A DNA stretch of 64,000 bases from Tubulanus polymorphus. Its lineage: Eukaryota; Nemertea; Palaeonemertea; Tubulaniformes; Tubulanidae. Shown here piece by piece: positions 22,772-49,562 of this stretch (position 1 is the stretch's first letter; every line of letters starts with the position of its first letter). The position numbers and the translations under genes are program-made. Below the pieces are notes generated by a model. That model saw only the letters and a program-made list of their open reading frames with translations, searched no databases and was not told where the DNA came from. The stretch spans positions 8,616,278-8,680,277 of the forward strand of contig NC_134030.1 of the NCBI RefSeq assembly GCF_964204645.1, read 5' to 3'.

Positions 22772-25700
22772 ATGGCTTCCCAAGCGCGGTCTAACGTGGG
22801 TTCACCAACCGGTATGAAAGGTTGGCAATTAGCCTTAGCCGTTGGCGCCCCCGTCGCCCTGGGGCTGGCTGGGCTATGGTACTACAAAAGGCTGAAAGCA
22901 CGAGAGCTGGGTTCATCTGGTAAAGGTTCTAAAACCGACAAAAAGGCGGAAACCTCCAGTGAAAATACACCGGTTCGTTTTTACTTCCGGGTTTGGAATG
23001 ATGGATGGGGATTTTCACTTGATTGATTTGCTTTTTCTAGTAGATTCCCTTTGATACCCGACCCCCGACCCTATCGTTGTTTACCATAAAAAAGGGCAGG
23101 GGCCTAAATAGATAGCCTCTTCAGGTCCTTCTAGAAGATCTGTCCTTCCTGAATTAAACTTGTATTTAATATGAATATAGGCCCAAGGCAAGTCCTACTT
23201 AATATTTTGCCTCATCTCATGTCTCAGTTCCTATAAACAGGTCAATGAAAATACGTAGATTTACGTATCTGAGAAAGTTAGCAAGTTTTCACCGTTATAC
23301 ACACTCTTTGATTTTGATGTTTTATCTCAACTCCATTGCATTTAAAGTTATTCATGTGTGATAAAAATTAAGGAAAAAATTAAAGAACGTTCAGGGACTA
23401 TATATTCCTACTAGCATGAAAGATCGTTAGATTGGCATGAAAAATGGTGAAATTATAAGGGTGGCAGCACCAGCTGGCTTTATGTTTTTGCGGGGAAAAC
23501 CAGGTTTTTTCGACAACAGGGTGAAGAATATCTTCATTTAGGAGTCGTATTGATGATAAATTTCACTCAATTTTGAAATTTTTTGCTTCTTAAGATTTTT
23601 CACAGGTTGACAAAAACAAGTGAAATATGGCAAGTCAATTAATTTGAAGATAATATGATAAATGTTGTTTTATACTGGAGTTTTGTTTTTTATTTGTATA
23701 TTCGCTATAAAATCTGAAGTTTTTTCGTGAATAAGTAATTCAGGCTATGCATCAATTTAGTGACCATAGTACTCCCATCTTGTCTTCAAAAATTTAAGCT
23801 GACAAAACGCCACGGTAGATCATCAAATGCCATGGTAGAAATCAGCAGAACTTAGCCCTCCACCACTTTAAACACTAATTGTGTTCCCCGACCGCTAGAT
23901 CTCTTTCGCAGCAGCCTCCAAATATGGCAGTGATGGGTAAAATACAACCACTGTCTAACTTCAACCTGTCACCCCTATTAAGTAGTAGTAGTAGTAGTAG
24001 TAGCAGTAGCAGTAGCAGTAGCAGTAGCAGTAGCAGTAGCAGTAGCAGTAGCAGTAGCAGTAGCAGTAGCAGTAGCAGTAGCAGTAGCAGTAGCAGTAGC
24101 AGTAGCAGTAGCAGTAGCAGTAGCAGTAGCAGTAGCAGTAGCAGTAGCAGTAGCAGTAGCAGTAGCAGTAGCAGTAGCAGTAGCAGTAGCAGTAGCAGTA
24201 GCAGTAGCAGTAGCAGTAGCAGTAGCAGTAGCAGTAGCAGTAGCAGTAGCAGTAGCAGTAGCAGTAGCAGTAGCAGTAGCAGTAGCAGTAGCAGTAGCAG
24301 TAGCAGTAGCAGTAGCAGTAGCAGTAGCAGTAGCAGTAGCAGTAGCAGTAGCAGTAGCAGTAGCAGTAGCAGTAGCAGTAGCAGTAGCAGTAGCAGTAGC
24401 AGTAGCAGTAGCAGTAGCAGTAGCAGTAGCAGTAGCAGTAGCAGTAGCAGTAGCAGTAGCAGTAGCAGTAGCAGTAGCAGTAGCAGTAGCAGTAGTAGTC
24501 CGCTTTTAATCCGTTTCCTCTAGCGTTTTTTATAACACCATTTTAAAAGTTTCATATATACGCACGTAACATATATTCAGAGTTTAATCCTTATAGGTAT
24601 ACAGCTTCGGGTGCGTACTCCAATGTCTGTCAAGCCTGACCTTAAAGCAATCCATAGACGGTAGAAAGTTTGGTGGGGAGGGACATATACCATGTATATA
24701 TTTATACGTGTTGATTGCATCACCCCTCATTCTTCTATAAACCAGGGTTGGAAGTTGAAGTTGTTTTAGGCGCTGTTCATAAGATAAATTCTGTAATCGG
24801 GGAACCATCCTAGTCACTCTCCTTTGGACTGCCTCAATAGCGTCAATATCCTTTTGATACTGCAAGGCCCATACTACATTAGCATACTCTAATATCGGTC
24901 GAATTAGGGCTTTATACAGAGGTATCAGTTAACACAGTTAAGATAGAAATACCAAACTTTTTCAAAAAGAACTTCAACCATTGGTTAATATTATGGAGTG
25001 AAAGCCAATCAAATGTGCCGTCTTATACAGGGTGTAGCACTGGCCTAAAGTAGAGGGTATAGGTTATGCTTTTACCTGCGTAAAATTTCGTACGATACGT
25101 AAATTTACGTAGATACGTAAATCTACGTATTTTAATCGACCTGATACAATCTGTATGTCCATTTTTGTGCACTTCTAACTGGATGGCAGCATCTGTAGGT
25201 CTTGTCCCTGTCATTCTAAAAATTCAACTGATCAAAAGGATATTTTAAGGGATTTTATCCACTTCTTACTGATATAATTTTTACATCTGCATTACAGAAA
25301 TTCCTGATGATAAACAAAATAATTTATGTCTTCATTCATTTCAGAGTACACCATTAGAGTTGGCGCAAGCTGCGAAAAATAAAGGCAACAAGTATTTCAA
25401 GGCTGCTCAATACGACAAAGCGATTGAATGTTATACACAAGCAATAGATCTGTGTCCTGGAAATAATCCAACTGATCTCAGTACATTCCATCAGAATCGA
25501 GCTGCAGCTTATGAACAATTGGTTCGTTGGAAACTTTTTCCTTCGATTTTCTGTTATTGTTGGGAAGAATGTTGATGTTTTTTTCAACTCAGCCTGAAAA
25601 GATATCAGGTGCCATAACTTTTGGTACTAGGCCTACAGTAAATAAAGAACATTTTGCATCATGGAAAATATGACTCAAGTATATTCGACTTAAAAACTGG

Positions 25701-37498: not shown

Positions 37499-40400
37499 TT
37501 ATTCGCTTGACATTGTGACTCGAGATGAAGTGCTGGACGATTCTTCCGGTAGACCGGCTAAACGGCGGTTGAATAAACGGAATACTCGAGGTCTCAAAAC
37601 AAAACAGATGAAAATGAGAAACCCTTGGGAACCATTAAAAAACGTGTAGATTATTTTCAGAACAGGGGTACTTCCGTAGCTAGCAAGAAAACCGAGATAC
37701 CACGTCAGTCCCATTATCAAAGATAATTTCATAATAATGATATAGGAGCTGTTTGTTTTCTTCCGTTTCGATTTTACAACTTTTGCCACCTTTTTAGCAT
37801 CTCGTATTGCTCGCATTGTGAATCCGAAAAACGCTAAATTAAAGAAACAAATAACTGCGATGGGTATGAGAAAAGTGTAGACGAGTTGGTCAGGGTTTGA
37901 GATCCAACACACTTGTTTGTCGGCGTATTTGAAGCCGGAGTTTTCTACCCAGAACGTTAGCGAGCCACATATAGCCAGTAGAACTGCCGGCAGTAGGTAA
38001 GCATAAGCACAATAGCGTCTGAAACAACGAGCCTTTTGAAAATTATCTCTGATTGCCGCAGAACCCCTGAAAGTTCTAAAGGTATCGTAGCTGATGACGT
38101 TTGTCCAGAAGAACACAACGAGCCACAGATAATGCACGATCATGCCGACTATCGAACACAGCAGTGGACGAGAGAGTAACGATGGTTGGAAAATCACGGC
38201 ATTGAATAACAGCATAACGATGAATAAAGAAGCACACATGTTCATCAATGTTTTACCGGGTATCGTACGCAGCGTTCTGAATAATGAATAAGTAAAAAGA
38301 ACGAATATTAAACCAAACAACGACAACGAGCAAGTGATTATCGTTAGTTTAGTCTCAATCTCAGTCGCAAGATCGTAGTTTCGTCGGTAGAACTCATCCA
38401 TTCAGACAACCACCAAATTACCACTGATCTGTATTTGATCTTTGCTAAGCTCGAGTTCCAACCCCGTAGGTGTTTTGATAAGAAGAATACCATCTTCCGT
38501 TTCGTTTAGATGATCTCTGCTATAAACTTGTCGACGCCGGCAAACCTCTTTCTCACAAACGACAATGTAGTTTCTGGTCCGATTTTCATCCCGATAATTT
38601 CGATGATAAATTCCCAGCTCACTTCTTACCGGTGTCCATTGCCTTAATGTCGAGTTATCACTTCCGAGGAGTGATACGTATTCTACACCATTTTGGACTG
38701 TCAGGTCAAATGCTTCGTCTCCGTATTCGCGTAGATTGTTTTCATCACAATCCGTCATCAAGTTGTCGGTTCTGAAATTTCTGATTCGAAGTTTGTACTT
38801 TTCGATAGACCGACAGGCATATATCCGCGATTTCCCAACTCCGAGACTGCTTAGAATATGATTAGCGATGTTCTTTAAACTTTCGTACGTAACGATATTC
38901 AAATCGGGAAATTCTACCGAATAATGGAAACCTGCGTTGCCAATTTCACTATTCGGTAAGGTGTTCATCTTCCATGTCGTGTTTAACTTGAAACGTGAAA
39001 TAACCTCATCTATCACACCGGCAATAGACGTACTTACTCGCTTCGTACATTTGTAAAACACCTCGAAATTTGCGAATAAAACTCTCGTTGCGTTGTATGG
39101 AGGAAATTCGGCGTGGAATTCGTCGGAATCGATGCATCTTTTTGAAATAGTGTTGTACAACGTGTTTTCAGCTTCGCACGTTGGAATCGACTGGAGCTTT
39201 CTCATCGTTTTCGGATCAACAAGATCCATTTCAGCAATGCCGGGTCTAGACAGATCAAATAATACAGATAACTGCGGATTGGCACCGAAAACACTTGAGG
39301 GAGGACCACTTCTTAACCTACCTAGGCAGCGTACGTCATTGCTTGCATTGAAACCGTTGCACAAGGCACAATGTACATTGCGGAACACGATGTCGTAATC
39401 TTCAACTTTTATTGGTTCAGCGTATTTGTAACAGGGATGGTCGTTACGGTGTTCCTGTGACGGACAAGTCATAATCTGATCTTTCATCCCCCTCCTGAAA
39501 CAGGAAACTGCCGAATCGGTGAAATCTAGTTCGACGCGGTGTCTCTTCAAACTCTCAAACACACTTCTCTGGTCACCGCCATTCCAGTGAGAACTACCAA
39601 ACGACGGTGGCACAAAATCCAAACGAACTTGACGAATTCTGTAATAACTGACGTTTTGAAAATGACACCGAAGGCAATAGATATTACGAAAGAGAATGTC
39701 GCCGTAAACAACGGGGGTAAAACTAAGCAAATCTGTCAACTTGGAATCCGCATGAATCGGTGTAGGGCTTTCACATGCTTTAGTCTCTTTGGTGGTAGTT
39801 TGCTGGGGACATTTCACAACTGACCAGTAGTAATATCTATTTCTGCTTTCGAAGTATGGTATATTGAAGAATGTACAGGAAGTGAAATCCGCATAGTGGT
39901 GTAACTCGGATGACACTATGGGCGTAGTGGAGCTCTCGTTTCTGCAAAGCATGTAGTAGTCCAAACAACATGTACCCATCACCACGCACAATTCGCTACA
40001 CGAACATACAGATCCGCCTGCACTTCCACAACGATCTCTGCATGTTAACCACGGACAAGTAAGCGCAGTTGCAGTAAAATTGAACGACGCGTCCCCATCT
40101 GAAAATTATAAGCGTTTTACAAATTAGCAGAACAAGCACATACTTGTGAAAAACATGCACTTAGAACGAAACAATCTACGAACAATCCCCTCGGATTGTA
40201 CAAACAGGAGATTAATGTCGCGATTGACACTTAAGTGAAAGTTAACAATAAGCAGCAACAACTTCGCACCGATGTATTACCGGCGGAATAGAGCAGTCTC
40301 GCCAGGAAAAATGTAATCGTACGATTGGAAGAATACAAGACGAATATCTCGAAGAATAGAACGCACGGAAAGCGCTTATAATTCGTGATTCGTCTAAATG

Positions 40401-40575
40401 TCGAACAGACGATTGTGTAACCTGCAAATGATGACACTAATGCGTAAAAGAAATGTAATTCGTCGTCAGAACTCTTGATCTCAGTACAATCATTACCTGC
40501 GATTGCTGGCTCAGCGATGGAAATGGCTTTCGCAGAAATAACAATTACGACACAAGTCCATATCATGAATTTCAT
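37499..40575 (-). CDS. SMB-domain methuselah/secretin-like GPCR, split by in-frame TGA
   Basis: Seven-pass cell-surface receptor; the ligand is unknown. Exon 1 (40497-40575) starts MKFMIWTCVVIVIS, a signal peptide, and joins in phase 1 to a single large exon 2 (40098-37499). The mature N-terminus is a somatomedin-B-like domain with ordered cysteines (CPWLTCRDRC, VCSCSELC, GTCCLDY). A long Cys-containing ectodomain of ~480 residues follows, with no visible GPS cleavage site. A TGA codon at 38402-38404 ends this frame; the next codon is ATG and the same frame continues as the 7TM region (TLRTIPGKTLMNMCASLF in TM1-2, WLVVFFWTNVISYDTFRTF in TM3, MGLTWYLGFLA in TM6). The stop is TAA at 37499-37501. 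Both halves look intact and constrained, so decay alone does not explain the TGA. The TGA falls where related receptors often have a cysteine just before TM1 (from memory). Confidence 0.85.
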
Positions 40576-41956
40576 TTCGGCTCAGATTTCTTTGTTATGG
40601 CCATGCATCAAATGTCAAACCTAATGGACTATGAGCTCCTATAGGTCGGAGCGTAATCTTTAGACCGATTTTTTTCTAGAATCTACGGTGTAGCTCAGCA
40701 GTTTCTACATTCACTCTTTTGTTCCTTAACAAACGCTGATATAGATTCGTGTTTGGGATAATGAAAGTTCGATAGTTCCAGTGAATGAATTGTATGCAAC
40801 AGTATCATGGATTGTAACCGACCGATAATTATACGAAAATGAAATAAGGAAAGAATCGATCATACATCTTCAGCAATAATTTCTAGAAATATTAGTGAAC
40901 GCAAAAATAGATGGGGGCCCTGTTATAGTCTGTAGCAGAAGAATAACATGTGGTGCACAGCTCTTCCGCAAAAGAATTGCATCGCAGAAAACGATATAAA
41001 TACCTCGAGATTCAGCCCAGTTGACCATAAAGTGACCATGGAAGACTTCTTGAAATTGGCTAACTCGAGTTAACTCTATTTCTATATTTTCTTGTCTATA
41101 TGTGTTACCAGAAAAGTGAACGTCCCTGGCGATCTTACAAACCTTTCAAACCTGTGATTGCCATATTCGAAGCATTGTGTAATAAGTATCAACATCATTA
41201 TGTCGAATTTACTAGAATACTAATTGTAAAAAAAACTCAATACCACTAAGAAAATGCAGAAACACAACTAGGTATGTGTGAATATCTAGTAATATATAAA
41301 ATTCATTGCATAATAACACACAAAACAACCAATTTTGTAATTATGTATGACTCACATGCCATACGAATATAGTGTGTATGTTTTGCCGATACAATGTGGT
41401 CCGCAACTCGAAATGCTCTACGATGAACTGGGTATTTTGTATGAGTAAGTACGATGAAATATTTCATATAATATGTAAAATAATGTATATATAATATGTA
41501 TATATAATGACATCTTGCATCATTTTCCACGTAACGCAATAACGAATTCCCTACAACTAACAATATTAAAGGGTGACTGACACTTTTTTCAAAGTATCGT
41601 GGTACATTGTCATACACATATGCTAGGCCTACTATTTCTCAATCCGACGTAACAATGTTATAAATGTTTTATTTGATGATTGCAATCAAAAACATGTCAG
41701 TATCAGATAATTGTTTTGACAAAAGACTTTTTCATTAATTTCCATAGAGATAGTCACGTCATGCTGCATCGTCTATATCAATGGGCGACCTACACAGAAC
41801 CAAGGTAATAATCCGTTAACTCATGAGATGATGTATCTCAATCTGCAAGTAACATTGCAAGAGATCAATGAGAAGATTTTCTGTTAAATTGAAGATTCGT
41901 ATACGTATCCTGATACAATCTACAATCAGATTTCATTTGAAGTTTGTCATTTAAAG
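40576..41956. other. divergent intergenic region
   Basis: It separates the minus-strand GPCR from the first recognised exon of the plus-strand Ig receptor. I found no convincing signal-peptide exon for the latter. AT-rich palindromic stretches occur near 41480-41510. Confidence 0.35.
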
Positions 41957-44900
41957 GTTCCAACAGTCGAGTCGAAATTGCGTCAAAATATAAGATTGAT
42001 GGTCAGCCTTATATCGTGGCCCTGGAAGAAGACGACGACGTTAAGGTCACGTGTAACCATACATCCCCTGCTTTTGTGAGCAAGGGGCCAGTGAGATATT
42101 CTCTCTTGAGAGATAGGATCGAAATCGATAACAGCGTTGTTCCGGAAGTTGTTCTTAACAAAAGAGTAGAACTGAAAATCGGAAAACTGATACCAGCAGC
42201 AAAATATCAATGTCGGATGAGAACAGGTGAAAGCCAAGTGTTCAGCTCAACTTTAGTGGCTGATGTCATCAAATGTAAGTCAAGCGGTATTCTTTCACCT
42301 TTGGTTGCCATTGTCTTCGCGCTTGGTGCCCACTGGCCAACTAGACTTGGCCGGTTTCGGCTGGAAAAACATGAACTTGCTCGAATGGCCGCCTCGATGC
42401 TGATGTGCTGTTGTACAATTAATCCTTGTCCATTCAATCGAGGACTCTTAGGACCCTCTTTCCTTTCGGCTTCTTTCACCTTTCGGCGATTCTTTAAAGG
42501 AAGTATTACTATATCAGCACCGTGGGTGGATGTGTTGACAATATAAAGTAGGACAATTTTGTTTTCGTTCGTGCTGCTTTTTCACAACATGAATTGGGTC
42601 GGGTTGCAGTAATTGCGCACAACCTTTGATCTCTAAATATGGATAGACATATGTCCCCAAAGTCTGCTGATTCTCATCTAAATCCCACCATTGGCTGATT
42701 CTATTATTACCGACCCCAATCTATTGGGACGAGAAAATACTACCATGTCATCTAAAATAGCAAGAAAGTTGTTCCCTATTCCTAGAAACGTATAATGTTT
42801 CAAAAAAATCTTTCAATTGAAGCCATCAGAATTTCGCCTTCACCATGCACTGGAAGTAAATACAATCATGTACGATGCACTTGTTTGGTGACGAATAGTC
42901 TTGTCGATGCAGTAGTTGACGTTGATTGGTTTAGAACTAGACACAAAATGGCAGAATTTGCAATTCAAAAATATCCAGGAAATAAGACTAAGGTACGAAT
43001 ATGCGCATACTGGAAAAATATACCGGAAATGAAAAATTCAAAGATGCGTGTTATATCGAAATTCGTTTAAGTAAGCGACATCCAACAATACTTTTGATTT
43101 CTTGCGAATTTTCATCAAAATAATGACACCATATCGCAATGAATAACAATGCAACGATTGTTACAGGACGGTTTGATATTTACGAACTCTATAGAATTCG
43201 AAGCGAACGACAACGAGAACAACCAAACCATCGAATGTCGTCTGAATTACAACGGACAACGTATACATCACCTATTCGCTGCGACGTCGATCAATGTCAC
43301 ATGTAAGAATTCGGCCGGCTAAGATTACTCACTCGTACCTTACACACTTTCGTATCACTTCGGGGAAGAAATATCAAATAGAAATGCAACGATAAAATTA
43401 AATGATCAAATGCTATTTGATGATGATAGAAATGAGTAATTCATTATACTGATAATAGCAATGCTAAAATACCATGATTAAAGGTTATTTAAAGAGGTCC
43501 ACTCTTAAATCATATGAAGAAGGACTCATATTTATCTTCATCGTTCTTGTTAGTTTTGACGTTTTGGTTTTTGTTTCACTGCATGGTTAGCGATCCTATA
43601 TGGTGGCTGATTCGGACATTCAGAGAAAATTTGACGTTTTTTGTCGTACTGGTGTTCTGGCGCCTTCATTTGCATACCCGGAATTTTACGTTATGGCCCG
43701 AATCAGCCACCATAATCCTATATTCTTGCCGTTGACATTCTAGTTCCAGCTCGAGATATTATAGCCACCGGAATGTATACACACACCATCAATGAAGGAG
43801 ACAAGGAGAATCTCATGTGTGTCGCTGGAGAAGCAAACCCGCCCTCAACTATATACTGGTTCCGACAAAAATTCCAAGGGGACGAAAGCGTTGACGTTAC
43901 TCGCCGCGCCCGAACGTCTTTCGTTCCCAGAAGAACAGGGGATTATGGTTTCCGTCTGAAAAGTGAATATTTAGTACGTGCGACGCCCAGTGATGACGGA
44001 TCTTACGTAAAATGTGTCATCGGAGAAAATCGAAGTCTATTCAAAAAAGCACATTTTATCGTTCATCGTAAGTGCAAAATGTGGACTTCAGAATATCTTT
44101 GGAATTTTCTTTATGGTATCATCTGGCCTGGAAAGATAAAAAATGGTTCACCAATTGTGAGATTATTTTGAATTTCAATTACTGTTTATTATTTGAATAT
44201 GGTTTTATCGCTTCGCATATCGGGGTCATACATCGTTAGTTCATTTTTTCAGATGGTCCGTCGCTTGAGCTCAACATTTCGTCGTCTAACATCGAGCCAC
44301 CTGTGAATAGTAGTGCTACAATCGTGCTAAACGTGGTATCGAACCCGAGCGCTACGGCAGTTAGCTGTTCACAGGAGAACAAGGAAACCGCGTATGCCGG
44401 ACGTCGGATCCAGCCTGACGATGGAGTGTGGTTAATAACGGTGCCGATACATGAAGCAGACGATTACGGTAATTACGTCTGCACTGGAGTGAACGAAAAC
44501 AACATCCAGAAAACGGCCGTCGTCACAATAGCAAATCCAGGTATTCACCGAAAAGAGATATAAATGAAAATAATTAAGGTCGACTTTTTTTCTATTTCTA
44601 AAATATTACGTATTTTACCAGGCTCGTTCGGTATGGTGAAGGTTCTAGTGACAGCGGTTTCGGGGACTATTCTAACTGGAGTACTGGTCGCCGGTGTTTT
44701 GATCGGGATCAGAAGGCGTTGCAAGCGAAAAGAAGGTAAATATCAATGCGTGAAATGATAAAGATATGCAATACTTTTTTCTCATTATACATAGACGTAG
44801 TAGACAAAACTGGCTTTAATGTGTCGTATATATCAATAGTGTTACAATACAATCTTACATTAATCACGGAAACTTCTGGTTCATTCCTTGAAAAATAAAC

Positions 44901-47900
44901 CATTCAGTGAATTATCAGACTATGACAAACGGGTTGTGATTTGAAAAGAAAGCATACATTAATTTTTTTCGGGTTAATAAAACAGTTACAGCAGGCTCGT
45001 AATTCAATAAATTTTTCATTATAGAACCTGCTGTAACGTTGACAGAACCATATCTTACGCGCGATAAAGGTGAGGAAATAATCCGGTATGATTAAGAAAA
45101 TAAATTATCATTAACATAATCATTATTGATTATTCAGGTCAAAGCTGTTGTTGTTATCTATAAAAAGATATCTAGAATAGGAATGAATAAATGGAAGTAA
45201 TCATTAGATTAGCGATACCGATGATGGAAAGGTATCAACATTTCTCTCAATTTGTAGCATTTTTGCGAGAAAAGTTGGAAAGAAGTTTGAATCAAAGGAA
45301 CATTACTGACGACGAGAAAACAGGTGCGCGCGTTACAATGTCTTTCTCGTGCTTTCCCAAATGCCTATTTCAAGAACGGTATTTTCTTAAACGATTCTCA
45401 TTACAGAGATATTGACGCTTTTAAGATGGGAAGGAAATTGGATCGAATGGAATAGAGTGGTCTGCATTGATAATGCTGGTAAATATTGTACGCCAACATT
45501 TATGAGGCCTTCTTTTAAAATCTATGTACCGGTATGTTAATCTATGCAACATAGACTTTAAGTGTTACTTTCTGGCAGAAAAGACAGACTTAATGATTTT
45601 GCTTTTCGATTGAAGTTCTCATTTCGCATACATTTTAAATGATATATACATGTATAATACCTATTCATGAAAATCTTCTGTTTTAAGTAAGATTGATTGA
45701 GCGAACATTAATGGAATATTCCGCTACAGCCAACAAAAAGTCACCGGGTAAATTTAGCATTTGTTTATTTCTCATTTTAAGCATAATTATAACAACAACA
45801 AAGAGGATATTTTTGTCATTTTCTTTTATAGATGTATTAAAAACAATGGATCAGTTACTAACTCAAGAAACTGAAGGTGATTCTGACATTAAATATATGT
45901 ACACAGACAGGCCCTTGAATCAATTTTTAGGATCCCTTTACCTTTTATTGATATTTCCATCCGTAACGATTACTTGTTCTTCCGTACGACTTTCAGAAAT
46001 CGACGCTTTGTGCAATAGAAATGAGGGTGAGCTTCAATTTTATTTAGGAATATTTCGTCCGTCTAATTGGCTCTGTTTTCGTCCAGAAATCCCACGCACG
46101 ATCGTATAGAAAAAAAATTGTTAATTTTTCTTTTCTGTGTTTCAGTTGATTTATTCCGAAAAAGGGTTATATGCTATAGAGGTTCGTGTAATTCAAATTC
46201 TTATTTGTTATCATTAGAAGTTTTAAAATACTTTTGTGTATAGTTCCATAAAAGTAATTTCAAGATCATATTTTGTTTCAGCTACTGATACAGTAACACG
46301 TAAGTTATCAGAAAAATGAGAAAACGTTCGGTTGAAAAATGTATCAAAAGCTTGAGTGATCGTTAGAGCATTGATATTGATGCATAAATTATTTTTGATT
46401 TATGTACTTGACAGGTAAATACATGAAAACTAGTTGTGCAACTATCTTTGAGAATCAAATCGAAAAATTCAAAGGTAAGTAGCTACAGGTCCCTACTCAA
46501 AAGAGACAGTGGTTATAGATAAAAAACGCCTCCCATTTCTCATTTGCTTAAGCTAAACAGAAAAATCTAAATAGATACGAGCGCACTGCATTGAATTTGA
46601 TAATGTTATAGTAGTGATTAAGTGTTATGTATGATAGTTAGCTAACCATGCAGTATCCATCTTACAGAGTTGATAACTGTTATCTTGGATTCTCGAATAT
46701 CAGAACTGTCGAAACAAGGTAAGTAGGTTTCCTGAAAATGTAAATAAAAAACGATAAGATCAATTTTTATTCTAAAAACGCATTCAAAAATGCCATTCTA
46801 TTGTCAAAATTGTGATGAAAAGTTTTACTTTTTGTAGTTCCTTCACATAGTTTCATCGTCAGCAGGATACAGATAGGTACGCGCGCATAATCATCTATTC
46901 CCACTCATAGCATATGTCTGTCTGAACTGAAATGGGCCCCTGAAAAGAAGTATATTTTTATTTCTATATCTTGAATTTTTTTAGACAGTCTTTTAAGAGA
47001 GAAAATCATATTTGACCAAGGTAAGTCAGAATTTCATTGTGAAACACAAAAGCGATGCTACGTGTAAAGTTTTCAACAGGACAACCTGATATCATTATGC
47101 GTGTTAATGCTTTTTCAGCCTCCGTCGATGGAATGCGAGAAATTATAGGTACGTACATGATACGGATCCTCTTTGCATAATATGTGTGCTAATTGCACTA
47201 GGATAATAACTCATAATTTATTTCCAGACGATCGCATTCGTAAAATCCAAGGAAATGGACGAGCCGATATAGGTATGAACAACTAAAAACTGTGGCATTG
47301 GTTGAATCTTTTCACTAACTACCATAGGCATCCCCGAGGGGGAAGGTTAAGTTAAGTTTATTTTGCAAAAAGGTTCGAGGATGCGAACGCCCCTCTCTTT
47401 TGGAATAATGAAAAATAGTTTTTTACCTCATAAATTACGCCGGCTACTCCAAACTTCGTACACCAAAATCTAGCAGCCATTCTTTTTCATTAGTAAAAAG
47501 CCTTATCGGCAAAGTGTGGTACAATCTTTATAGTGGAAATAGCCATTTTTAAGGGAATTCGGCCCCTCCCCTGGAAAAAGAAACCGGGACGCTCATGTTT
47601 ACCAATTCGCTCCCCGAAGTTTTAATGTACACTTTTTTTATTAAGATTTATTGGACGATTTAACCGAAGAAAGCGAAGATGGACAAATTGTTCTCAACCA
47701 CGGTAAAAATTGATTGATTGGAATGATATTCGTTATACTTTCGAAATGTATTCTATTAAATTTGCCTTCATTTATGCAGCGAATAGGATCGGTTTGAACC
47801 TACAAGACGAAATACTGCACTGGGCCTTAGGTAACGAAGGATTCACGACAATTTTTACTTTGATATTAAGTCCACTCTCTGTAGGTACACTGAAATGACT

Positions 47901-47982
47901 ATGATATTATGCGCTTTTTTCAGATGATCTCATCCGACAACATTTATTAGTGTCAAGCGTGAACAGTGTCTATCGAGTATAG
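41957..47982 (+). CDS. Ig-superfamily membrane receptor with micro-exon tail (5' partial)
   Basis: Single-pass membrane protein with four Ig-like domains. Exons: 41957-42274 (Ig1), 42823-42992 and 43167-43302 (Ig2, split by a phase-0 intron), 43750-44067 (Ig3), 44253-44540 (Ig4), 44622-44735 (membrane span, VKVLVTAVSGTILTGVLVAG, then RRRCKRKE). Tail exons: 45025-45069, 45258-45323, 45688-45747, 45832-45876, 45997-46026, 46146-46181, 46282-46299, 46415-46474, 46668-46718, 46838-46876, 46985-47020, 47119-47148, 47228-47272, 47646-47702, 47780-47830 and terminal 47924-47982 with stop TAG. Ig marks include VTCNH/YQCRM, VRCTC/IECRL with VDWFR, LMCVAGEANPPSTIYWFR/YVKCVI and AVSCSQ/DDYGNYVCTG. All junctions agree in phase. 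The signal-peptide exon is not identified, so the 5' end is partial. No ITIM or ITAM is seen. Closest general type is an adhesion or immune-type Ig receptor; orthology is not recognised. Confidence 0.85.
43595..43716. repeat. inverted-repeat element in Ig-receptor intron
   Basis: CCTATATGGTGGCTGATTCGG at the left is the reverse complement of CCGAATCAGCCACCATAAT at the right, ~120 bp apart. It is a MITE-like foldback and accounts for the short open frame at 43514-43735. Confidence 0.65.
45025..47982 (+). other. array of 16 symmetric micro-exons (cytoplasmic tail)
   Basis: The internal exons measure 45, 66, 60, 45, 30, 36, 18, 60, 51, 39, 36, 30, 45, 57 and 51 nt. Each begins and ends in phase 1 and is a multiple of 3. 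The terminal exon of 59 nt ends in TAG. All have an AG acceptor and a GT donor. Any internal exon can be skipped or included without changing frame. Many encode a short amphipathic segment beginning with one of D/E/A/V and two or three hydrophobics (DVLKTMDQLL, DSLLREKII, DLLDDLTEES, AFLREKLERSL, DDLIRQHLL), as if derived from one another. Confidence 0.85.
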
Positions 47983-48361
47983 GTAAATATAGTTCCAAAC
48001 AGCACATGATCCTAGAGCAGATTCAGATGGGAGCACAAGAAGCACGTGCCTGCCACCATCGAAATTGTCCCGTGCCTTTTTTCGGGCAGGTTTTCTTAGA
48101 ATTTTCCTGACCGAATGGCGTGGATATTGCCCTTGTAAATAGTATGCCCTTTTCATGTCTTTCGTTGTGCTCCTGTCGAAATCTGTCCCTTCATTTTTAG
48201 ATCAAAATCTACCCTACTAATTGAAGTATTTTCTTTTTTCAGCTTCAAATGAACGTCATGTTTTTCAAGCCATGTAAAGTTAAAAAAGAATCAAAATATA
48301 TGCATGTTAATAACTACAATCTCAGTAATGAAAATAAATGTAATTTTGTAACTCTAGTTAA
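47983..48361. other. downstream of the Ig receptor stop
   Basis: It holds a GTAAAT directly after the TAG at 47980-47982, so the last exon could also be spliced onward outside the coding region. No further coding exon is supported. Confidence 0.35.
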
Positions 48362-48475: not shown

Positions 48476-49562
48476 CCATGAATCACCATATGGTAGTTGT
48501 GTGGTTGGTACATCGATCATATGCTGCCAACAGCAAATATGCTAAAGCCTTCAGTTTCCACAATGAATCAATGAACAATCTGGAACACTTCTAGTACTGA
48601 ATGAATAAAATGATTTTATTTTGTGAAAAATGATACGAATATATCATTATATATTATATATAAAATACAGTTGTGAATGGTCCCGGTACAAATTTCTCAT
48701 AAACTGATGGAAGTTGTGTATAAAAATTTGAGCAATATAAAAACACATGAGCAATAAAATATACGTGTCCGGCTGGCATATACACCAGCTGCTAATGATG
48801 GTAGGATGGTAGGCTCTGATTATCTACATAATGTACCTACACTGAATCGTCTAATGTATAGTCCTCTTAACTACGAAGAGTGGAAATGCTCGCAAGTACT
48901 ACATGTACGTTTGCTTATTGGCCAAATAGGTTCAACTCTACCACTCCCAACCATGGCGAACTTCAGATTTCGTAGTTTGTCGACAAGTGGTTGGAGCAAA
49001 TAATCGAACGCTTTATAGTTCAATCTTAAAGTATTTCACAGCTTCAGCCATTCTACATCGACTATACTCAGTTGCGTGGTTTGCTATTTTCGGACTATAG
49101 TTCCGACTAACTGACATTCGGTTTGACTTAACTTGCCAAATAGTCAGTTTACTTAGATAACTGAAGTTCGACCTTACTAAGTTAGACTACAGATGATAAA
49201 GTCTGCCGAATTAGGCTACCTTAAAAGGGTATTGTTCAACTCGATATAATTAATTATATGACTAAGAACCTATGAAATATACAGAATAAAATGTCATAAT
49301 CTATACAAAAATACACCGTACAGAATCGCTAATGAATCACACTTCAGTTATACAGTGGTCCAACATGCATACACCCAGTCACACAAACACATACACGTAC
49401 ATATGTCAAAACTGCAATTTTGAGGTAGGGTTAACCATGCGCTCTTAATTCGTTTTAGAGTCCATGGGTTAACGTGTATGACTTACTTAAAATCATGTAC
49501 AGCCATTACCATCATCGAATCAGTATTGGGCAGTGCATTTGGCTATTTACACTTTCATAACA
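48476..49562. other. intergenic, nothing recognised
   Basis: AT-rich sequence between the Ig receptor and CDK4/6. AATAAA at 48605-48610 on the plus strand could serve the Ig receptor transcript. Confidence 0.35.

Follow-up and report, generated by a model that had tools for sequence, protein, structure and literature searches.

Two kinds of described system come closest to the gene treated here: immunoglobulin (Ig) receptors with variable or very short tail exons, and the micro-exon genes (MEGs) of schistosomes. The gene lies in the nemertean Tubulanus polymorphus, within a stretch of 64,000 nucleotides (C6:8616278-8680277, contig NC_134030.1; hereafter the window, whose numbering is used below) of an assembly of 268 Mb in 77 contigs. 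It is an Ig receptor gene, called here the C6 receptor, in which the membrane-span exon is followed by 16 short internal tail exons (T1-T16), each a multiple of three in length and each in phase 1-1, and then by a stop-bearing exon (T17). This gene structure is real and unusual. With little more than even confidence, we lean towards reading it, from its sequence, as a single-copy, single-span Ig receptor with a symmetric 16-exon tail and more than one end, in which some exons would be optional and would yield a modest set of isoforms.

In PECAM1, an Ig receptor, the tail exons are short and the tail bears tyrosine motifs of the immunoreceptor tyrosine-based inhibitory motif (ITIM) type. With L1CAM-type and other neural microexons, Ig adhesion receptor tails likewise include a tiny exon, but there it is one microexon, whereas the C6 receptor has an array. 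Papers on PECAM1 describe isoforms that arise by inclusion or exclusion of the intracellular-domain exons 12-15 and differ in their roles (PMC7720527), a main murine endothelial form without exons 14 and 15, and horse skin in which the full-length form alone was detected (PMC2268708). PECAM1 and the C6 receptor both have an Ig ectodomain and an intracellular part spread over several exons; however, PECAM1 has four named optional exons, whereas the C6 receptor has 16 symmetric exons and more than one possible end. The two tails also differ in that the ITIMs of PECAM1 contrast with a complete lack of Y..[LIV] matches in the 252 residues of the C6 tail. The likeness drawn here is one of architecture.

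PMC4350168 characterizes MEGs as genes whose coding region lies for the most part in very small symmetric exons and whose products are secreted or membrane-anchored, and they are stated there to be restricted to platyhelminths; skipping of their exons yields protein variants (PMC4350168, PMC4015677). The C6 receptor resembles them in its succession of very small symmetric exons and in the possibility of in-frame skipping. Unlike in MEGs, however, the 16 exons amount to 36% of the 1932 nt of coding sequence counted (a count that omits the first half of Ig-like domain 2 and the signal peptide), and exons of at most 36 nt amount to 9%. Because only 36% of the counted coding length is in short exons, the C6 receptor falls outside the MEG definition, and it works, at most, like MEGs or PECAM1. 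A preliminary description of this DNA had likened the array to schistosome MEGs, which holds for the run of small symmetric exons but not for a majority of the coding sequence lying in such exons. SmVAL6 combines conventional domain exons with a micro-exon part (PMC4350168, PMC4015677), and up to five isoforms of it are described (PMC4015677). Conventional domain exons followed by a run of small symmetric exons are likewise found in the C6 receptor, but SmVAL6 has a VAL domain and is described as excreted, whereas the C6 receptor has an Ig ectodomain, a span, and an inner tail. In light of PECAM1 tail isoforms (PMC7720527) and SmVAL6 (PMC4350168, PMC4015677), the preliminary view that no receptor like this had been described was too strong; a limited literature search turned up no account of an Ig receptor whose array reaches this size.

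Exon architecture of the receptor tail

Splice sites were scored with a generic metazoan consensus matrix, with limits of 3.5 bits for acceptors and 4.0 bits for donors; these thresholds were fixed after the exons had been seen, but they were identical for the controls. T1-T16 measure 18-72 nt each and 699 nt together, all on the + strand. Every one of them is a multiple of three (16/16) and phase 1-1 (16/16), with AG and GT borders and no internal stop, and their phase agrees with the end of the span exon. The preliminary description had proposed 15 internal exons of 18-66 nt, all symmetric and in phase 1-1 with AG/GT borders, and a 59-nt terminal exon with the stop. The array, its symmetry, and its terminal exon stand, while the number of internal exons is 16 and the upper size limit is 72 nt, the length of T3 (45407-45478). 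The same description held that the architecture permits free combination of exons, and as far as the reading frame goes this is borne out: since each of T1-T16 is a multiple of three, open, and in one shared phase, any subset of them would give an in-frame tail.

The array begins with T1 (45025-45069, 45 nt), which has the weakest acceptor (4.0), T2 (45258-45323, 66 nt), and T3, followed by T4 (45730-45747, 18 nt), T5 (45832-45876, 45 nt), T6 (45997-46026, 30 nt, with a longer in-frame form from 45931), and T7 (46146-46181, 36 nt), which has the weakest donor (4.6). It continues through T8 (46282-46299, 18 nt), T9 (46415-46474, 60 nt), T10 (46668-46718, 51 nt), T11 (46838-46876, 39 nt), and T12 (46985-47020, 36 nt) to T13 (47119-47148, 30 nt, with a longer in-frame form from 47080), T14 (47228-47272, 45 nt), T15 (47646-47702, 57 nt), T16 (47780-47830, 51 nt), and the terminal T17 (47924-47982, 59 nt), whose last codon is an in-frame TAG. 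Acceptors of T1-T16 score 4.0-9.2 and donors 4.6-12.0. For comparison, seven internal exons of the Na/K-ATPase and AGPS genes in the same window, placed by spliced alignment, measure 190-289 nt, with acceptors of 4.1-10.8 and donors of 5.1-9.1, and only 1/7 is a multiple of three.

The introns from the span exon to T17 have a median length of 115 nt, and 4/17 are multiples of three. Exon borders are partly ambiguous, as a chain run that permitted long exons and rewarded length picked 45931-46026 over T6 and as T13 has its longer form. Two weak in-frame alternative sites occur, at T1 and T10. No further phase-1 microexon with a length divisible by three was found in the tail introns (acceptor >2 bits, donor >3 bits, margins of 40-45 nt). 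In the interval 45687-46109, T4, T5, and T6 share one open frame across introns of 84 and 120 nt; since both introns are multiples of three without an in-frame stop, their retention would leave the reading frame intact. Nor does an in-frame stop occur in the 83-nt intron between T2 and T3.

Comparison of the array with controls

To compare the array with controls, we searched for chains of phase-1 exons of 12-90 nt with lengths divisible by three. The best such chain in the tail region scored 113.0 and contained 16 exons, whereas the same region gave 16.4 (3 exons) in phase 0, 22.1 (4 exons) in phase 2, and 3.0 for the phase-1 antisense chain. Dinucleotide shuffles (n = 200) scored at most 20.9, with no more than 5 exons. 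We also scored 188 control slices of equal length from both strands of the window and of loci L029-L048; some of them overlap, and Ig-type genes are among them. The top slice reached a score of 44.5 (7 exons), and Ig-type gene loci on C3 and C12 supplied all of the seven highest slices. A further 26 Ig loci of 3.2 kb (L001-L028 minus L009 and L010, which overlap the receptor gene; some overlap other controls) reached at most 37.5, the longest chain having 8 exons. The tail region contained 17 candidate exons, of which 16 are T1-T16 and one is the longer form of T13.

In a frame-blind test, exons were chosen on splice score alone, and this choice removes the circularity that would come from demanding open frames. 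The picks that were multiples of three and open in phase 1 numbered 16/17 at 3.5/4.0 bits (acceptor/donor), 15/16 at 4.0/4.5, 13/13 at 5/5, and 11/11 at 5/6; the miss printed at 4.0/4.5 bits was 47494-47513. If lengths were free, 13/13 multiples of three would arise by luck with odds of about 6e-7. Codon usage pulls the other way, as the true frame (0.023 bits/codon) was not separated from the other two (-0.016 and -0.003, stops excluded), which weighs against the array, although 0/1000 sets of open intron segments reached 0.023 bits/codon. Chain scores against controls and shuffles, together with the frame-blind picks, lead us to reject a chance origin; the tail exon array is thereby confirmed as real and above chance, as the preliminary description had maintained.

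Candidate ends of the gene

When T17 is included, the protein ends in VYRV and the stop sits on the last junction, where a donor-like GTAAAT (6.5 bits) adjoins the exon. Downstream, two acceptors exceed the 99th percentile of AG sites in the window (8.9): one at 48243 (11.6 bits), where T18, a candidate for an alternative last exon, would begin (phase 1, coding from 48243 to 48277), and one at 48090 (10.3 bits), which opens a second candidate. If T17 were skipped, the protein would finish in ASNERHVFQAM (48243) or in GFLRIFLTEWRGYCPCK (48090), each followed by a stop. A candidate polyadenylation signal, AATAAA, lies at 48333-48338, 90 nt past the 48243 acceptor, and others lie at 48604, 48753, and 49285. 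No other feature of this locus predicts alternative splicing as clearly as the T17 stop beside a donor with the strong later acceptors.

The receptor gene upstream and neighboring genes

Upstream of the tail, the ectodomain exons are mostly phase 1-1, and of its four domains, one Ig domain lies above the Pfam cut-off, while the three others are weak or were recognized by eye. Ig-like domain 1 (41957-42274, 318 nt, phase 1-1) comes from the exon chain and is Ig-like by eye, without a Pfam match. A phase 0 intron interrupts Ig-like domain 2. The first half of this domain (42820-42992) is an open reading judged by eye, with an uncertain start, a donor of 8.2 at 42992, and no well-scoring acceptor at the expected position and phase; its second half (43167-43302) was also placed by eye, and one chain run chose an alternative acceptor at 43195. 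The Ig domain 3 exon (43750-44067), whose acceptor is possibly a few bases further upstream, matches C2-set_2 (4.6e-5) and ig (1.5e-4), both above the Pfam cut-off, and the Ig-like domain 4 exon (44253-44540, 288 nt, phase 1-1) matches Ig_3 below it (E 0.051). The latter is followed directly by the membrane-span exon (44622-44735, 114 nt, phase 1-1), with no FN3-like domain between Ig and membrane; its hydrophobic stretch, the single span of the protein, was identified by eye and is followed by the basic stop-transfer sequence RRRCKRK.

When Ig-like domain 4 and the span exon were used as a query, the best non-self match in the genome had an E value of 0.0027 and lay in an Ig cluster on C3, so that no close paralogue was found. 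Tandem matches to Ig-like domain 4 occur at C12:1.33-1.46 Mb (L038 and L039), where, judged by eye, L038 also has exons that resemble modules of the EGF, F5/8 type C, and FN3 kinds. At C7:18290604-18296047, a row of 16 Ig matches with similar scores and a spacing of 331-390 nt is possibly a recent internal domain expansion.

Besides the Ig exons, the window holds Na/K-ATPase, AGPS, and a secretin-type G protein-coupled receptor (GPCR); this gene content and the GT/AG introns are of animal character. No RNA families at the gathering threshold and no tRNAs were found in it. The GPCR (37499-40105, - strand) matches Pfam 7tm_2 (2.9e-25) and, for its somatomedin B domain, Somatomedin_B (2.9e-7). 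Its ectodomain frame stops at a TGA just ahead of the seven-transmembrane (7TM) frame (TGA ATG, same frame), and a donor of 5.7 bits sits 20 nt upstream of the 7TM ATG; this break may reflect (i) a hidden intron, (ii) readthrough, (iii) two genes, or (iv) a broken copy. An open frame at 40231-40581 (- strand), without a Pfam match and oriented towards the Ig receptor, contains MKFMIWTCVVIVISAKA and, judged by eye, is likely the signal-peptide exon of the GPCR. The GPCR and the Ig receptor may have a common promoter region. A hexamer repeat, AGTAGC, occupies 23981-24499 (86.5 copies, 99% matches).

Tail exons of the C3 receptor cluster

A second group of receptors offers a comparison within the same genome. 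At C3:22.80-23.21 Mb (L029-L037, L040, L041, and L043-L048), single-span receptors of Ig/FN3 type, with FN3 recognized by eye, lie in tandem. As in the C6 receptor, their span exon precedes short phase-1 tail exons; these measure 27-105 nt and lead to a longer last exon. The symmetry of these tail exons is an input of the chain search, which required phase 1 and lengths divisible by three. For the L040 slice, the phase-1 chain scored 44.5, compared with 34.0 in phase 0 and 15.1 in phase 2. Unlike the C6 receptor, the C3 receptors have about eight tail exons, FN3-like domains before the membrane, and membership in a multi-copy family.

The number of copies of one tail exon, which contains DPIYSNV, varies among these paralogues, with two copies in L032, L036, L037, and L041 and one in L040 and L047. 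This count covers the six genes with a full row, where a match had to reach 60% identity and span 75% of the exon; it omits L035 and L048, which overlap L032 and L040, and the more divergent L031, L043, and L044 show a partial row. The L037 copies do not differ within the exon, and with 60-nt flanks included they agree at 137/192 positions. When L040 is compared with five paralogues, identity is 94.6-97.2% in the span and tail exons and 91.8-95.0% in the introns. Because copy number differs among paralogues, gain or duplication of tail exons is observed in this genome.

Several C3 tail exons hold one tyrosine motif (Y..[LIV]). The L040 tail has nine such motifs and falls on the disordered side of the charge-hydropathy plot (0.366 versus 0.415), in contrast to the C6 tail, whose composition is of folded type. 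In its 252 residues, the C6 tail contains 36% ILVFMWYC, four prolines, and four tyrosines, and searches for Y..[LIV] (YxxΦ), NPxY, and PxxP returned 0 matches. The preliminary description had regarded the C6 tail as a signaling side, which neither this lack of motifs nor its folded-side composition favors; the C3 family is a better fit for a tail that signals through exchangeable motifs. Searches with the C6 tail gave no Pfam family above the cut-off (best E 0.017, a bacterial family) and a best match among Protein Data Bank (PDB) chains of E 0.12, both regarded as noise. A second genomic copy of the tail was sought and rejected, as 8/8 matches at E <=10 lay in its own locus, although matches of 12-20 residues can escape such a search. 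Recent exon duplication within the array was likewise rejected, since the direct repeats form six short two-copy families and none links two tail exons.

Optional or constitutive tail exons

In the interpretation that we favor, the array would have arisen by the gathering of phase 1-1 modules behind an Ig superfamily gene with mostly phase 1 exons, and some tail exons, T17 foremost, may now be optional, so that the gene, like PECAM1, would produce a modest number of tail isoforms. The spread of acceptor and donor strengths among T1-T16 speaks for it. We infer the optional exons from the architecture, and a constitutive tail appears nearly as likely.

Several results weigh against the optional-exon interpretation or parts of it. 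The short introns mean that intron definition could splice the tiny exons constitutively. Splicing motifs were not enriched near the tail exons (top z of 3.2 upstream and 3.2 downstream, with shuffles up to 3.9), and TGCATG was absent there. In the charge-hydropathy plot, the tail lies beyond the boundary towards folded proteins (H 0.453 versus 0.428), and with such a composition the loss of tail pieces may be harmful. Peptides of different exons were no more alike than expected, the start-anchored value being reached by 233/1000 shuffles and the best pair by 150/200; because the exons are not alike, duplication is invisible in the receptor tail gene. Any acceptor read in phase 1 meets some stop, so that it is site strength that argues for T18, and the two candidate last exons (48090 and 48243) compete. 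At the 5′ end, a search of 40.5-41.95 kb for an exon encoding a signal peptide, one of the features of MEGs, yielded no convincing candidate, even with laxer limits.

The first alternative is a constitutive tail, in which all 16 exons are always used and their shortness has no regulatory role; it is a substantial possibility, although we hold it with somewhat less than even confidence. The symmetry would then stem from old addition or duplication of phase 1-1 modules, with later length changes held to multiples of three. Intron definition across short introns, the lack of motif enrichment, and the folded-protein composition all suit such a tail, as do the tail-exon duplication observed in C3 receptors and the mostly phase 1-1 exons of the ectodomain. 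However, the exons retain no mutual similarity, two of them are only 18 nt long, and site strengths vary, and a fully constitutive tail is hard to square with a T17 stop that adjoins a donor and has strong acceptors downstream.

The second alternative extends the optional-exon interpretation, of which it is a stronger and compatible form: most exons would be independently optional, in the manner of MEGs, and each animal would make a large set of tails, for example, per cell type or per cell. The 16/16 symmetric exons in one shared phase would permit such combination, and schistosome MEGs do vary by exon skipping (PMC4350168, PMC4015677). Nevertheless, we consider it unlikely, as the architecture is only permissive, the composition of the tail is of folded type, and there are no mutually similar alternative exons.

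Finally, an origin of the exons by chance, or as part of a separate or decayed gene unrelated to the receptor, could draw on the failure of codon usage to discriminate the frame and on the missing 5′ end of the receptor gene, but it is very improbable given the agreement in length class and phase of 13/13 frame-blind picks at 5/5 bits, the scores below half that of the array in all 188 control slices and 200 shuffles, the low antisense chain score, and 16 stop-free exons whose phase fits the span exon.

Implications for receptor diversity

In the known cases of large-scale splicing diversity in Ig receptors, such as Dscam, the variation lies mostly on the outside of the molecule. A removable array of 16 tail exons would shift such diversity to the response side, and the C6 receptor would offer a clean single locus for testing this. 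In its strongest form, which we regard as unlikely, one ectodomain would be combined with a tail assembled from any of 16 exons, each optional independently of the others, with alternative ends and without the usual tyrosine motifs; if true, very many tails could come from one gene, and an immune or adhesion receptor would be diverse in its output. A constitutive tail would still call for an evolutionary explanation of why 16 short exons without mutual likeness are all phase 1-1. A second family in this genome also has modular phase-1 tails, which suggests that receptor tails are built in a common way.

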